A DNA stretch of 64,000 bases. Source: Fructobacillus parabroussonetiae (GTDB taxonomy: Bacteria; Bacillota; Bacilli; Lactobacillales; Lactobacillaceae). Numbering within the stretch: position 1 is the first letter of the stretch; every line of letters starts with the position of its first letter. Where the stretch lies: the NCBI RefSeq assembly GCF_018437265.1, contig NZ_JAAMFL010000010.1, forward strand, positions 1 to 64,000, given 5' to 3'. Below are positions 59,246 to 62,752 of this stretch, piece by piece. Under the pieces are notes generated by a model. It worked only from the letters and a program-made list of their open reading frames with translations. It ran no database searches and had not been told where the DNA came from. Both the position numbers and the translations under genes were made by a program.

Positions 59246-59272
59246 AAAAGACGCCTTTCGGCGTCTTATTTT
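59246..59272 (-). terminator. terminator after nox
   Basis: AAAGACGCC-TTTC-GGCGTCTT hairpin with an adjacent T run on both sides, past the nox stop. Confidence 0.8.
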
Positions 59273-59286
59273 ACATTTGATTCACT

Positions 59287-60648
59287 TTAGACAGATGGTG
59301 TCTGGCCCAAAGCCGTTTGTGCGGCCAAGTTGAGCACGGACCACTGGCGATCAAAGCCAGGTTGGAAGAAGAAGTCGGCTTCTGCCAAGTCTTCCAATGT
59401 CATCTTACCCTTGATTGCCAAGGCAATCGTGTTGGCGTGAGCCGTCACGTCTTGCTTTGACAAGATTTGGCCACCCAAGATTTCGTGATTTTCAGGGTTG
59501 AAAGTCAACTTAACCAAAATTTCAGGGTTACCATCCGTTACGAAGGTTGGACGAACCGTTGCCTTGTAAAGCGATGACGCAACGTTCAAGTTCATCTTTG
59601 CGGCGTTATTGGCGTTGACACCAGTGGTAGCCAACTTATAACCAAAGACAGACAAGGCAGAGGAACCATTCACACCAGCAAAGGCACGGGCAGGCTTTTC
59701 AATACCAATGTTTTCAACAACGTAGCGGGCTTCGCGACGAGCCGTTGAAGCCAAGGCAATGGGTGCTGCCTGACGGGCTGGTGCAAAGAGTGGCTTGATG
59801 GCGTCGCCAATGGCAAAGACGTTCTTTGCAGAGGTTTGCAAGTAGGCGTTCGTCTTAATAAAGCCACGGGCATCCAAGTCAACCGCGCTTTCCAAATACT
59901 GCGTATTAGGCTTAACACCAGCAGCCACAATGACCAAGTCAGCATCAAAGCTTTGTCCTTCGTCATCCTTGACGGCTGAGACGGCACCTTTCCCTTCAAA
60001 GGAAGCCACGCCGTGACCAAGATGCAAGTTCACGTTGTGTGATGTCAATTCATCGGCAATTGGGCCAGCCAATTCTTCATCCAAGTAGTTACCCAGTGGT
60101 CGGTTAATCATGTCGATCACCGTGACCTTCTTACCGGCTTCGGCGAAGACTTGGGCAGCTTCGATTCCGATGTAACCCGTTCCAACAACCACAACGTTTT
60201 GAACGGATGCATCGTGCAACTTTTCGTCAATCTTTGTGGCCCAGTCGCGACCGCGCATCAAGAAGACGTTGTCCAAGTCGGCTCCTGGTACTGGCAAAGT
60301 CATTGGCGTCACACCAGAAGAGATGATCAACTTATCGTATGAGTCCGTCAACTTCTTTCCAGTGTTTTGATCCAAGACCGTCACTTCTTGCTTGTCCGTG
60401 TCGATGGCTTCCACTAAGTGGTTGGCCAAGACTTTGCCACCGTACTGCTCAATGTCAGCAGGCTTGAAATTGCGAACGGCATCACGTTCCGTCACTTTTC
60501 CTTCCAAGAAAAGTTCCATTCCACAGGACATAAAGGAAATGAAATTTCCGGCTTCGTAAACGGTTACGTCAACGTCGTCATAGCGTGTCAACAACTCGTG
60601 TGCTGATTCGTGTCCACCGTGGGACGCACCAATAATAACAACTTTCAT
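59287..60648 (-). CDS. nox: FAD-dependent NADH oxidase (water-forming type)
   Basis: Reoxidises NADH with O2, important in heterofermenters using fructose or pentose phosphates. 453 residues. FAD Rossmann motif at the N-terminus (VVIIGASHGGHESAHEL), redox-active cysteine C42 in FISFMSCGMELF, NAD motif VVVGTGYIGIEAAQVFAEAG and the FAIGDAIKP segment. The single active-site cysteine fits the Nox/peroxidase family; water versus peroxide product is inferred by family. The promoter carries an inverted repeat. Confidence 0.92.
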   Translation of the reverse strand: MKVVIIGASHGGHESAHELLTRYDDVDVTVYEAGNFISFMSCGMELFLEGKVTERDAVRNFKPADIEQYGGKVLANHLVEAIDTDKQEVTVLDQNTGKKLTDSYDKLIISSGVTPMTLPVPGADLDNVFLMRGRDWATKIDEKLHDASVQNVVVVGTGYIGIEAAQVFAEAGKKVTVIDMINRPLGNYLDEELAGPIADELTSHNVNLHLGHGVASFEGKGAVSAVKDDEGQSFDADLVIVAAGVKPNTQYLESAVDLDARGFIKTNAYLQTSAKNVFAIGDAIKPLFAPARQAAPIALASTARREARYVVENIGIEKPARAFAGVNGSSALSVFGYKLATTGVNANNAAKMNLNVASSLYKATVRPTFVTDGNPEILVKLTFNPENHEILGGQILSKQDVTAHANTIALAIKGKMTLEDLAEADFFFQPGFDRQWSVLNLAAQTALGQTPSV

Positions 60649-60755: not shown

Positions 60756-61472
60756 TTAGAACAGCAGTCCAATGCCGTAGTGAATGGCGATGGTAACGAG
60801 TCCAACCCAAATATTTCGCCAGACCGCACGCTTAACCATTCCCTGTGAAAATAGGGCCGATAACAGGCCGGTGAGCGCCGAGGCGACAACCGTCGCGAGA
60901 ATGGCCGCTAAGTACTGGTATTCCACCGGGAAAATCAACAGGGCAACCAATGGGAAAACCCCACCTAGAGCCGCTGAAAAAGTCGATGAGATGGCTGCTG
61001 CAACTGGTGAAACGTAGTGACCAAGTGTCATGTCATACTTGACTGAAAGAACCGTTTCCAACGGTTTTTCGGCTAAGAGTTCACAGGCAATCGCCTTGGC
61101 CGTTTCAGGGCTGACCCCTCGATCCGTGTAGAAAGCCGCCACGTCTGCCACCTGTTCGTCAAAATCCGTTTTTAGCCGCGCCTTTTCGCGGACGACGGCG
61201 ACTTTTTCAGAGTCTGACTGAGAAGACACAGCCGCAAATTCACCTGAACCCATTGAAAGCGCACAGGCAAACAAGTCGGAAAGGCCGGCCAAGACAATCA
61301 CTAGGCGGTTTGAAGTCGCTGCGGCAACGGAGAAGACCACCCCAACAACGGTCAAAATACCATCGTTTGAGCCCAAGATACCGGCACGAATCGTGTTCAG
61401 CCGTTCTTCCATCGTTTGGCCAGACTGCTTATTGGCACGCTTCGTCTGCCATTTTTTAAAGATTGCTGTCAT
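60756..61472 (-). CDS. VIT family metal transporter (Ccc1/VIT1-like), second gene
   Basis: A 238-residue membrane protein of the vacuolar iron/manganese transporter family. MEERLNTIRAGILGSNDGILTVVGVVFSVAAAT matches the family start; about five helices and a soluble middle helical region (SEKVAVVREKARLKTDFDEQ). It starts 11 bases after the first VIT gene ends, so it is the second gene of the operon. In yeast and plants these proteins carry Fe/Mn; direction here is unknown. Confidence 0.9.
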   Translation of the reverse strand: MTAIFKKWQTKRANKQSGQTMEERLNTIRAGILGSNDGILTVVGVVFSVAAATSNRLVIVLAGLSDLFACALSMGSGEFAAVSSQSDSEKVAVVREKARLKTDFDEQVADVAAFYTDRGVSPETAKAIACELLAEKPLETVLSVKYDMTLGHYVSPVAAAISSTFSAALGGVFPLVALLIFPVEYQYLAAILATVVASALTGLLSALFSQGMVKRAVWRNIWVGLVTIAIHYGIGLLF

Positions 61473-61483
61473 GCTTTTTCTCC

Positions 61484-62158
61484 TTACTTAAAGAGTGACC
61501 CGATTAAGAAGGTCACGACCATGGTCAAAATACCGGAAAGAAGGTTTCGAATTGCCCCCTTCGTTCGGTTGGCACCGTTGACAACCGCTGCTAGATACCC
61601 CGTAATTAACAGGGCAATCAGCACAGCAAGGAAGGTTGCCATGATCCGCAGGCTAGGCGAAGCCACGGCCATAAAGACCATTGGCAAAGCAGCCCCGGTT
61701 GGAAAAGTCACAAAGGACACCAAGGCCGCTCCACCAGCAGACACCTGCGATTTAAGGGAGAAACCATGCCGTTCTCGGACTGTTGTTTCCAAGGGGTCCT
61801 TTGCCATCATTTCTTCCGTGGCCTGATTGGCTAATTCTTCTGAAATACCATCGGCCTGATACTTTTCTTTAACAAAGTTAAATTCGTTCTGATAATCATT
61901 TTTCAAAGCGAGCTCTTGGCTCTGACGGGCTTTTTCTTGTGCATCGTGTGAGGATTGCACGGACACAAACTCCCCCATGGCCATCGAGACCATACCAGCC
62001 AGCGTCCCGGCAAAACCTGACAGCATAATCGCTGATAAGCTTTGCCCGGCTCCGGCAACACCAACAATAATTCCGGCAACTGATAAAATCCCGTCGTTTC
62101 CGCCCATGACACCGGCACGCACCAGGTTGTTATGCGCCATTAAGGATTGCTTTTCCAT
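61484..62158 (-). CDS. VIT family metal transporter, first gene
   Basis: 224 residues, a paralogue of the next gene: NNLVRAGVMGGNDGILSVAGIIVGVAGAG and the same middle soluble segment (QELALKNDYQNEFNFVKEKYQ). It has about five helices. It is divergent from the Fur-family regulator and is driven by the promoter with tandem operators. The two proteins may form a heterodimer. Confidence 0.9.
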   Translation of the reverse strand: MEKQSLMAHNNLVRAGVMGGNDGILSVAGIIVGVAGAGQSLSAIMLSGFAGTLAGMVSMAMGEFVSVQSSHDAQEKARQSQELALKNDYQNEFNFVKEKYQADGISEELANQATEEMMAKDPLETTVRERHGFSLKSQVSAGGAALVSFVTFPTGAALPMVFMAVASPSLRIMATFLAVLIALLITGYLAAVVNGANRTKGAIRNLLSGILTMVVTFLIGSLFK

Positions 62159-62178
62159 AAAACTCTCTCCTGTCTAAT

Positions 62179-62225
62179 TAAGAATGGTTCTAAGTTATTA
62201 TACTAAGAAAATTTCTAAATGTCAA
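62179..62225 (-). promoter_or_regulatory. VIT operon promoter with two matching operators
   Basis: Minus strand: TTGACA (62220-62225), 17 bases, TATAAT (62197-62202). Two copies of the palindrome TAAGAA-N3-TTCTAA are present: 62179-62193 just past the -10, and 62204-62218 filling the -35/-10 spacer, 25 bases apart start to start. This matches a Fur-family repressor layout. Confidence 0.8.
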
Positions 62226-62251
62226 TCATTTGTATTGTTTCATTCTAATGT

Positions 62252-62279
62252 TATAATTGACATGAAGTTAATATTAACT
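62252..62279 (+). promoter_or_regulatory. promoter and leader palindrome of the Fur-family gene
   Basis: -10 TATAAT (62252-62257) faces right with TTGTAT upstream as a weak -35. The perfect 14-base palindrome AGTTAATATTAACT (62266-62279) immediately precedes the ribosome site AGGAGG. Confidence 0.6.
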
Positions 62280-62290
62280 AGGAGGTTAAC

Positions 62291-62692
62291 ATGCTGAATC
62301 CATTAAAAAACGTTCTACAAGAACATCAGCTAAAAGCGACGAGTCAGCGTTTGACTTTGCTTGAATACATGATGACCCATGACAACCACCCAACAGCCGA
62401 AATGATCCACAATGATTTGCCCCACATTTCCTTAGCCACGGTTTACAACACCTTGGAAAAGTTTGTTGAGAAAAAGTTAGTCGTGATTATCGACGGGATT
62501 TCGGACGGCAAGCGTCACTATGACGCGGCCGACCACCCCCACTACCACGTCATCAACACCAAGACAAACGAAATCATCGACGCTGCCAACTTTGACCCAG
62601 CGCCATTAATCAAAGCTGCTCAAGCTGCGACCGGCCTCAAAATCACCGAATACCGCATCGATCTCTACGGAGTTGAAGCGGATGAAAAGTAA
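62291..62692 (+). CDS. Fur/PerR family regulator lacking structural zinc cysteines
   Basis: A 133-residue Fur-family DNA-binding protein (helix-turn-helix at ISLATVYNTLEKFVEK). The PerR-type metal ligands are all in register: H33, D78, H84, H86 and D97. The structural CxxC pair at the C96/C99 positions of B. subtilis PerR is replaced by N89 and T92, and the second CxxC is missing because the chain is short. There is no cysteine in the protein. It lies divergent to the two VIT genes, so it probably controls metal storage or efflux. GGAGG is 5 bases before the ATG. Confidence 0.9.
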   Translation: MLNPLKNVLQEHQLKATSQRLTLLEYMMTHDNHPTAEMIHNDLPHISLATVYNTLEKFVEKKLVVIIDGISDGKRHYDAADHPHYHVINTKTNEIIDAANFDPAPLIKAAQAATGLKITEYRIDLYGVEADEK

Positions 62693-62708: not shown

Positions 62709-62752
62709 AAAAAAAGACCAATCGGATAATGATTATCCGATTGGTCTTTTTC
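62709..62752. terminator. bidirectional terminator between the Fur gene and the PBP gene
   Basis: AAAAGACCAATCGGATAAT and ATTATCCGATTGGTCTTTT arms form a long perfect hairpin between convergent genes. Confidence 0.95.

Follow-up and report, generated by a model that had tools for sequence, protein, structure and literature searches.

A cysteine-free PerR-like regulator beside paired VIT transporter genes in Fructobacillus and its relatives

RESULTS AND DISCUSSION

Genes and promoter at the locus

The window analyzed here, a 64,000-nucleotide stretch of Fructobacillus parabroussonetiae DNA, carries a perR-like regulator gene (62291..62692, + strand) that is divergent from two VIT1/CCC1-family transporter genes, VITa (61484..62158, − strand) and VITb (60756..61472, − strand). 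This arrangement had been recognized in a sequence-only reading of the DNA, and domain searches confirm it: PF01475, the Fur-family domain, is matched once, by the 133-residue regulator (E 2e-19; 70.3 bits against a cut-off of 23.1), and PF01988 twice, by VITa (224 residues, E 4.4e-54) and VITb (238 residues, E 4.4e-48). The VIT1 domain is full length in both transporters, covering model positions 1-214 and 1-213 of 214, and the solved VIT1 structure 6iu3 places both in the same family over nearly their full length (E 5e-9 for VITa, 3.3e-13 for VITb). Unlike 6iu3, which we take to be VIT1 from Eucalyptus, the proteins described here are two paralogues, 31% identical, encoded side by side in a bacterium. 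The setting is that of Fructobacillus. Regulators from eight named Fructobacillus species or strains share 84-98% identity with that of the window; F. papyrifericola is the nearest of the eight, with 82.6% DNA identity across 5.7 kb of the region. Among the genomes compared, G002, G004, and G005-G010 agree with named records at 100% across roughly 3.4 kb.

An npr-like gene (59287..60648, − strand) begins 107 bp beyond VITb on the same strand and is probably the third gene of the unit. The closest solved chain to its 453-residue product is the NADH peroxidase 1joa (445 bits, E 1.9e-132), compared with 299 bits (E 6e-88) for NADH oxidase, and the translation contains H10 and C42, presumably the functional His10 and Cys42 of NADH peroxidase. 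The best NCBIfam model is an NADH oxidase, matched far under its cut-off (335.8 versus 600 bits). No terminator was picked up by a pattern scan in the VITb-npr interval, and a terminator-like stem lies just past npr (59248..59267, − strand; consensus scan); a 19-pair terminator stem follows the regulator gene (62711..62751, + strand; pattern scan). In all, 9 terminator-like sites were returned, where shuffled sequence would give 4.7. The order VITa-VITb-npr recurs in 13 of 13 loci examined from Fructobacillus and the groups g39 and g6 (the window, L001-L008, L070-L072, and L074); npr is absent near the VIT pair in the examined loci of g16, which we take to be Leuconostoc, and of g7, g18, and g29, and the g16 orthologues are located elsewhere. 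Judged by gene order, npr is probably cotranscribed with the VIT pair.

The VIT promoter (62197..62225, − strand) was earlier called near perfect, and it is: TTGACA-17-TATAAT agrees with the consensus at 12 of 12 bases. On the other strand, a TATAAT at 62252..62257 (+) was read from the sequence as the −10 element of the regulator gene.

The regulator is best read as PerR

Relatives of the regulator were sought in 350 genomes of the family, 317 of which gave a match at an E value of 1e-5 or better. We read 38 close regulators (at least 54% identity, the window's included), 43 more distant ones, and 11 second Fur paralogues. The close set comprises 13 from Fructobacillus (every genome searched in the genus, each of which has the close regulator), 18 from g16, two each from g39 and g6, and one each from g7, g29 (G174), and g18 (G207); 37 of these proteins are intact. 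A second Fur-family protein is present in 8 of the 18 g16 genomes.

The five regulatory ligands of Bacillus subtilis PerR are H37, D85, H91, H93, and D104. With the correspondence set by alignment to 2fe3, the window regulator has all five regulatory metal ligands, H33, D78, H84, H86, and D97, and no cysteine, as the first reading had stated. Neither these five residues nor N53 varies among the 37 intact cysteine-free proteins. The residues canonical for PerR are N61 and D104, with R and E in their places in Fur (PMC8638851, in the text available); the same 37 proteins have N53 and D97, the PerR-type rather than the Fur-type pair.

The closest solved chains by sequence are PerR 4i7h and 2fe3. 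A structure model (pLDDT, 81; pTM, 0.62) has the Fur fold but is less certain in the C-terminal half, where the zinc site would be. Foldseek ranked the PerR chains 2fe3 and 3f8n first by E value, whereas by TM-score some Fur chains fit slightly better (1mzb, 0.80; PerR 3f8n, 0.77), and the NCBIfam PerR models match below their cut-offs (best, 81.5 versus 180 bits). On these comparisons the regulator is best read as PerR, the peroxide repressor. An Irr-like heme sensor is less favored; Irr models match, but score below PerR.

The known members of the VIT family either export their substrates or sequester them. This bears on the idea of a Fur-type iron sensor, which would hold the VIT genes repressed at high iron and release them at low iron, VIT being then an importer or an iron-sparing device. 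The Fur fold of the model agrees with such a sensor, as does the finding of no other Fur-family protein in any of the 13 Fructobacillus genomes, which leaves this regulator as the sole one found in each. Set against it are N53 and D97 in place of the Fur-type R and E, the known direction of VIT transport, and the boxes at peroxide genes in relatives described below; we regard a Fur-type sensor as very improbable. On the subject of iron efflux, PMC7762939 describes MbfA, a protein with a VIT1-like domain.

Loss of cysteine marks one branch of the family

All 37 intact close regulators lack cysteine and with it the Cys4 structural zinc site, whereas the 54 other Fur proteins read (43 distant regulators and 11 paralogues) have four or five cysteines each. 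In the cysteine-free proteins the first cysteine pair is replaced, the C-terminal tail after G127 is 3-10 residues long compared with 10-27 in 15 four-cysteine relatives, and the segment ahead of the recognition helix has 4 residues fewer than its counterpart in most four-cysteine rows. Four-cysteine rows from g35 also have the short segment, and from this form it appears that the shortening may have preceded the loss of cysteine.

In a tree of 89 family proteins (family-only rows without an outgroup from other phyla, and without the G207 protein and two identical rows), the cysteine-free proteins form one clade on a long stem with support of 100/100. Among the family members read, this tree indicates that cysteine loss marks one branch, that of Fructobacillus, Leuconostoc, and relatives. 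The regulator had been called zinc-free and unusual. Of the first term, the lack of cysteine stands, and the absence of zinc would be its consequence. The second holds inasmuch as a single cysteine-free clade was seen in the family, but a PerR without the cysteine motif is on record in Leptospira (see below), and 15 of 15 relatives from outside the family (L009-L023; 14 cyanobacterial and 1 flavobacterial; 26-35% identity) are also without CxxC, though with 2-5 cysteines each, so the absence of CxxC is not unique to this clade.

The regulator of G207 (L093, g18) is broken by a stop codon, and the 84 readable residues before the stop hold no cysteine. VITa and VITb adjoin it, and the other g18 members read have the four-cysteine form; the odd placement may reflect transfer or a mixed assembly.

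Matches to the close regulator on plasmids were all below 60% identity. Separately, the Leuconostoc suionicum plasmid NZ_CP015248.1 (loci L195 and L193) carries a four-cysteine Fur-like regulator whose neighbors are annotated as a Dyp-type peroxidase, an FAD-binding oxidoreductase, and a heavy-metal P-type ATPase; a 6-kb stretch of the g16 genome G143 (L195) is 99.7% identical to this plasmid.

A conserved operator accompanies the VIT pair

PerR boxes are 15 bp long and of the TTAGAATnATTCTAA type, and the box found in relatives of the window has the form TTAGAATnATTCTAA, with TTAGAATNATTCTAA as its perfect palindrome. Two palindromes of identical pattern had been proposed for the VIT promoter. 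Both are present: the 15-mer TAAGAANNNTTCTAA, one step from TTAGAATNATTCTAA, occurs twice, 25 bp apart, once as the conserved operator O1 (62179..62193, − strand; TAAGAATGGTTCTAA on the + strand), 3 bp downstream of the VIT −10 element, and once inside the promoter spacer (62204..62218, − strand; TAAGAAAATTTCTAA on the + strand). No further exact match occurs in the assembly, which spans 1.22 Mb and is 93% complete. When one mismatch was allowed, the genome-wide count was at background (13 matches, the exact ones included, versus 14 for a reversed-pattern control).

In the 260 bp upstream of the close regulators, a TTAGAANNNTTCTAA-like site with at most one mismatch is present in 35 of 38 cases (0.05 expected from dinucleotide shuffles) and one with at most two mismatches in 36 of 38 (1.2 expected). 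Both genomes that lack it, G327 and G305, also have no VIT genes next to the regulator, and the site is thus found in 36 of 36 relatives with the gene pair and in neither of the two without it; absence of the operators from relatives with the pair, named earlier as the refuting observation, was not what we saw. No exact box occurs anywhere in the G327 or G305 genome. Both are Leuconostoc-type (L086 and L090) and have an intact cysteine-free regulator, no match to ahpC, and only a distant npr paralogue.

A second site lies 52-55 bp away on the regulator side in 22 of the 36 genomes and 74, 173, 173, and 174 bp away in four Fructobacillus genomes; nine have the VIT-side site alone, and in the window the second match is the spacer site. 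Accordingly, 26 of 36 VIT-bearing genomes have an operator, O2, within the promoter of the regulator gene itself at no more than two mismatches, in forms such as TTAGAAACATTCTAT and TTGGAATAATTCTAA. At the equivalent position of the window (62234..62248, + strand; ATTGTTTCATTCTAA), 55 bp from O1, there are four mismatches; the left half has decayed and only the right half is retained. The sequence-only reading had missed both O2 and the npr gene behind VIT. In F. papyrifericola (L001, upstream of 4001) the regulator-side half-site TTTCATTCTAA is present twice, apparently through a short duplication.

Whether both sites in the VIT promoter form a tandem operator essential for regulation can be judged from the spacer copy. 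Two exact copies 25 bp apart, the sole ones in the assembly, speak for it, and a second site as good as the spacer site is unlikely by chance (0.05 expected over the 38 regions), so the spacer site may be a real local gain. It is nevertheless confined, at up to two mismatches, to the window's own genome, and is missing from the 12 other Fructobacillus genomes. We therefore reject the tandem operator as a conserved feature and consider it quite unlikely that regulation depends on both sites.

Among the 43 more distant, four-cysteine regulators, 10 are also divergent from VIT genes (in one, G213, the contig ends after a single VIT gene). A site with at most two mismatches was found at 10 of 10 and one with at most one mismatch at 5 of 10, counted over 300-350 bp upstream without a shuffle control. 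Since these relatives have the same kind of box, cysteine was lost without visible change in the operator. The circuit had been suggested to be specific to this lineage; that applies to the loss of cysteine, but not to the circuit, which these four-cysteine, VIT-divergent relatives share in other genera.

The same box stands at peroxide genes in relatives

Across 42 genomes, 18 places with an exact site that is not next to the regulator were read. The box is 18-33 bp upstream of ahpC-ahpF in G222, G317, G206, and G018, and roughly 60-115 bp upstream of an NADH peroxidase gene in G279, G292, G143, and G337. It also occurs at Dyp-type peroxidase genes in two genera (L120 and L121), 26 bp upstream in G018 and at the start of the gene in the four-cysteine genome G046. 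In another four-cysteine genome, G079 (L122), it lies 41 bp upstream of an operon for an ABC ATPase and a UPF0014 permease, a pair that we take to be possibly a FetAB-like iron exporter. In both g39 genomes, G050 and G082 (L110 and L111), it is flanked by genes for a cation-efflux protein and an Nramp protein, a hint that the box may be connected with metal transport in this genus. The other five places (L119 and L124-L127) are inside genes or far from a plausible target.

Searches for ahpC and npr covered 34 genomes. ahpC is present in 11, and a box with at most one mismatch stands at 10 of these, one of which (G079) has a four-cysteine regulator; none was found at ahpC in G266. npr orthologues of at least 74% identity, all in Leuconostoc-type genomes, have a box with at most two mismatches in 8 of 9 cases, and paralogues of 32-38% identity in 0 of 9 read (a count without the NADH-oxidase-like matches in G143, G279, G056, and G017). 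Homologues of 50-57% identity have the box in 1 of 12 cases (G003). Eleven of these 12 lie behind a VIT pair; the remaining one, a 50% homologue in G252, is without a box (3 mismatches), as is the npr promoter of the window (best, 4 mismatches). If npr is read from the VIT promoter, the 11 VIT-linked genes would be expected to lack sites of their own, and control of npr in the window would likewise rest on such read-through. In the window genome, then, the box is convincing at VIT, half present at the regulator's own promoter, and not seen at npr.

Ferritin/Dps-type genes were considered as cotargets and rejected, with no box of at most two mismatches at any of the nine copies read (five further matches fall outside this count). 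ahpC was not found in the seven Fructobacillus genomes searched, nor ferritin/Dps in the five searched.

These results support the earlier proposal that a PerR-like regulator controls a unit for detoxifying metal or peroxide, and the evidence favors peroxide over metal as the signal, in that the same box occurs at peroxide genes and npr lies behind VIT. Lactic acid bacteria often hold high levels of manganese, and a Mur-like sensor, repressing when loaded with Mn2+ and releasing its targets when Mn2+ is lost, independently of peroxide, would suit that physiology. The manganese uptake regulator structures 5fd5 and 5fd6 are among the matches to the model, and the box between the cation-efflux and Nramp genes points in the same direction, though only in the two g39 genomes. 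Several findings nevertheless make a manganese sensor unlikely: the boxes at ahpC, NADH peroxidase, and Dyp-type peroxidase genes; the top rank of PerR both by sequence and by E value of the model; and D97, a PerR-type residue. An efflux gene corepressed by manganese would, moreover, be shut at high manganese, the wrong direction for detoxification.

Proposed circuit and its relation to known systems

We consider it probable that a PerR switch without a structural zinc site represses VITa-VITb-npr and its own gene and is released by peroxide. The dimeric regulator, with Fe2+ or Mn2+ in the His/Asp site, would bind O1, which overlaps the start of VIT transcription, and O2, in its own promoter, and repress both; a site placed like O1, 3 bp beyond the −10 element, is suited to repression. 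H2O2 would oxidize a metal-binding histidine of the iron form, the regulator would leave the DNA, and VITa-VITb-npr would be transcribed. The VIT pair would then clear the cytoplasm of reactive metal, Fe2+ being the likeliest, and the NADH peroxidase would destroy H2O2. Repression, the identity of the metal, histidine oxidation, the direction of efflux, and cotranscription of npr are elements that we infer.

Iron is favored as the VIT metal because of PerR-linked iron efflux in B. subtilis and the H2O2 response of Lactobacillus reuteri; manganese is possible. To our knowledge, B. subtilis PfeT, which is an ATPase and not a VIT protein, does not share an operon with a peroxidase. It resembles the unit proposed here as a metal efflux system derepressed by H2O2 through PerR, and pfeT mutants are not more sensitive to H2O2 (both from the available text of PMC9993123). 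In L. reuteri the predicted iron transporters pcl1 and pcl2, ahpCF, and perR rise with H2O2 under anaerobic conditions; pcl1 and ahpF do not respond to it under microaerobic conditions, and they respond also to HOCl. The portion of that article to hand (PMC6722424) does not identify pcl1 or pcl2 as VIT proteins.

The regulator shares with PerR of B. subtilis and Streptococcus pyogenes the five ligands, the diagnostic N and D residues, and a box of the TTAGAATnATTCTAA type, and also, in relatives of the window genome, the ahpC and peroxidase targets. It differs from them in having no CxxC pairs, a shorter tail, and a shorter segment ahead of the recognition helix, and in that the convincing target in the window genome is VIT, with npr behind. 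PerR of Leptospira interrogans (5NL9) is likewise without the cysteine structural metal motif (PMC8638851, available text); it is distant from the present regulator (58 bits for the NCBIfam PerRA model; 5nl9_A ranks 32 in the structure search), and no link to VIT is described in the accessible part of that paper. The four-cysteine relatives in other Lactobacillaceae (for example, G014, G246, G021, G096, and G122) have the VIT-divergent arrangement and the same kind of box but keep the CTNCG...CPxCQ-type cysteines. A regulon reconstruction for this family predicts NADH peroxidase as a PerR target; the word VIT is absent from its main text, and cysteine loss is not discussed in the portion seen (PMC3616900). 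We found no literature on VIT with Fur-family regulators in Lactobacillus or Leuconostoc, nor any title dealing with a cysteine-free PerR from these bacteria, in a search that most subscription journals lie outside.

Precedents thus exist for a PerR adjoining VIT pairs, for control of NADH peroxidase by PerR, and for PerR proteins without the cysteine motif, and what is new here is the version of a known circuit that lacks the zinc site, in one branch of the lactic acid bacteria. PerR proteins that have the structural zinc site can be compared with natural counterparts that lack it, in a single bacterial family and at a similar operator, so that the contribution of this site to stability and to sensing of thiol oxidants becomes directly testable. 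The shared operators and the adjoining NADH peroxidase gene would also tie bacterial VIT transporters to peroxide defense. More tentatively, one ancestral loss of the zinc site could have left a thiol-free PerR that reads H2O2 solely through metal-catalyzed histidine oxidation, is deaf to thiol oxidants and zinc stress, and in Fructobacillus guards a single operon encoding a possible VITa/VITb heterodimer and NADH peroxidase.

Near-matches elsewhere in the window genome

Seven of the 11 one-mismatch matches in the window genome are inside genes, and three lie 27-47 bp upstream of a gene. One of these three is 27 bp upstream of a multicopper oxidase gene (L032; C8:136326-137798). Across 11 readable promoters of this gene, 6 have nothing better than 4 mismatches; the site has 3 mismatches in G009 and G003, and 2 in the window genome, G006, and G008. 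On this distribution the multicopper oxidase gene is a possible extra target.
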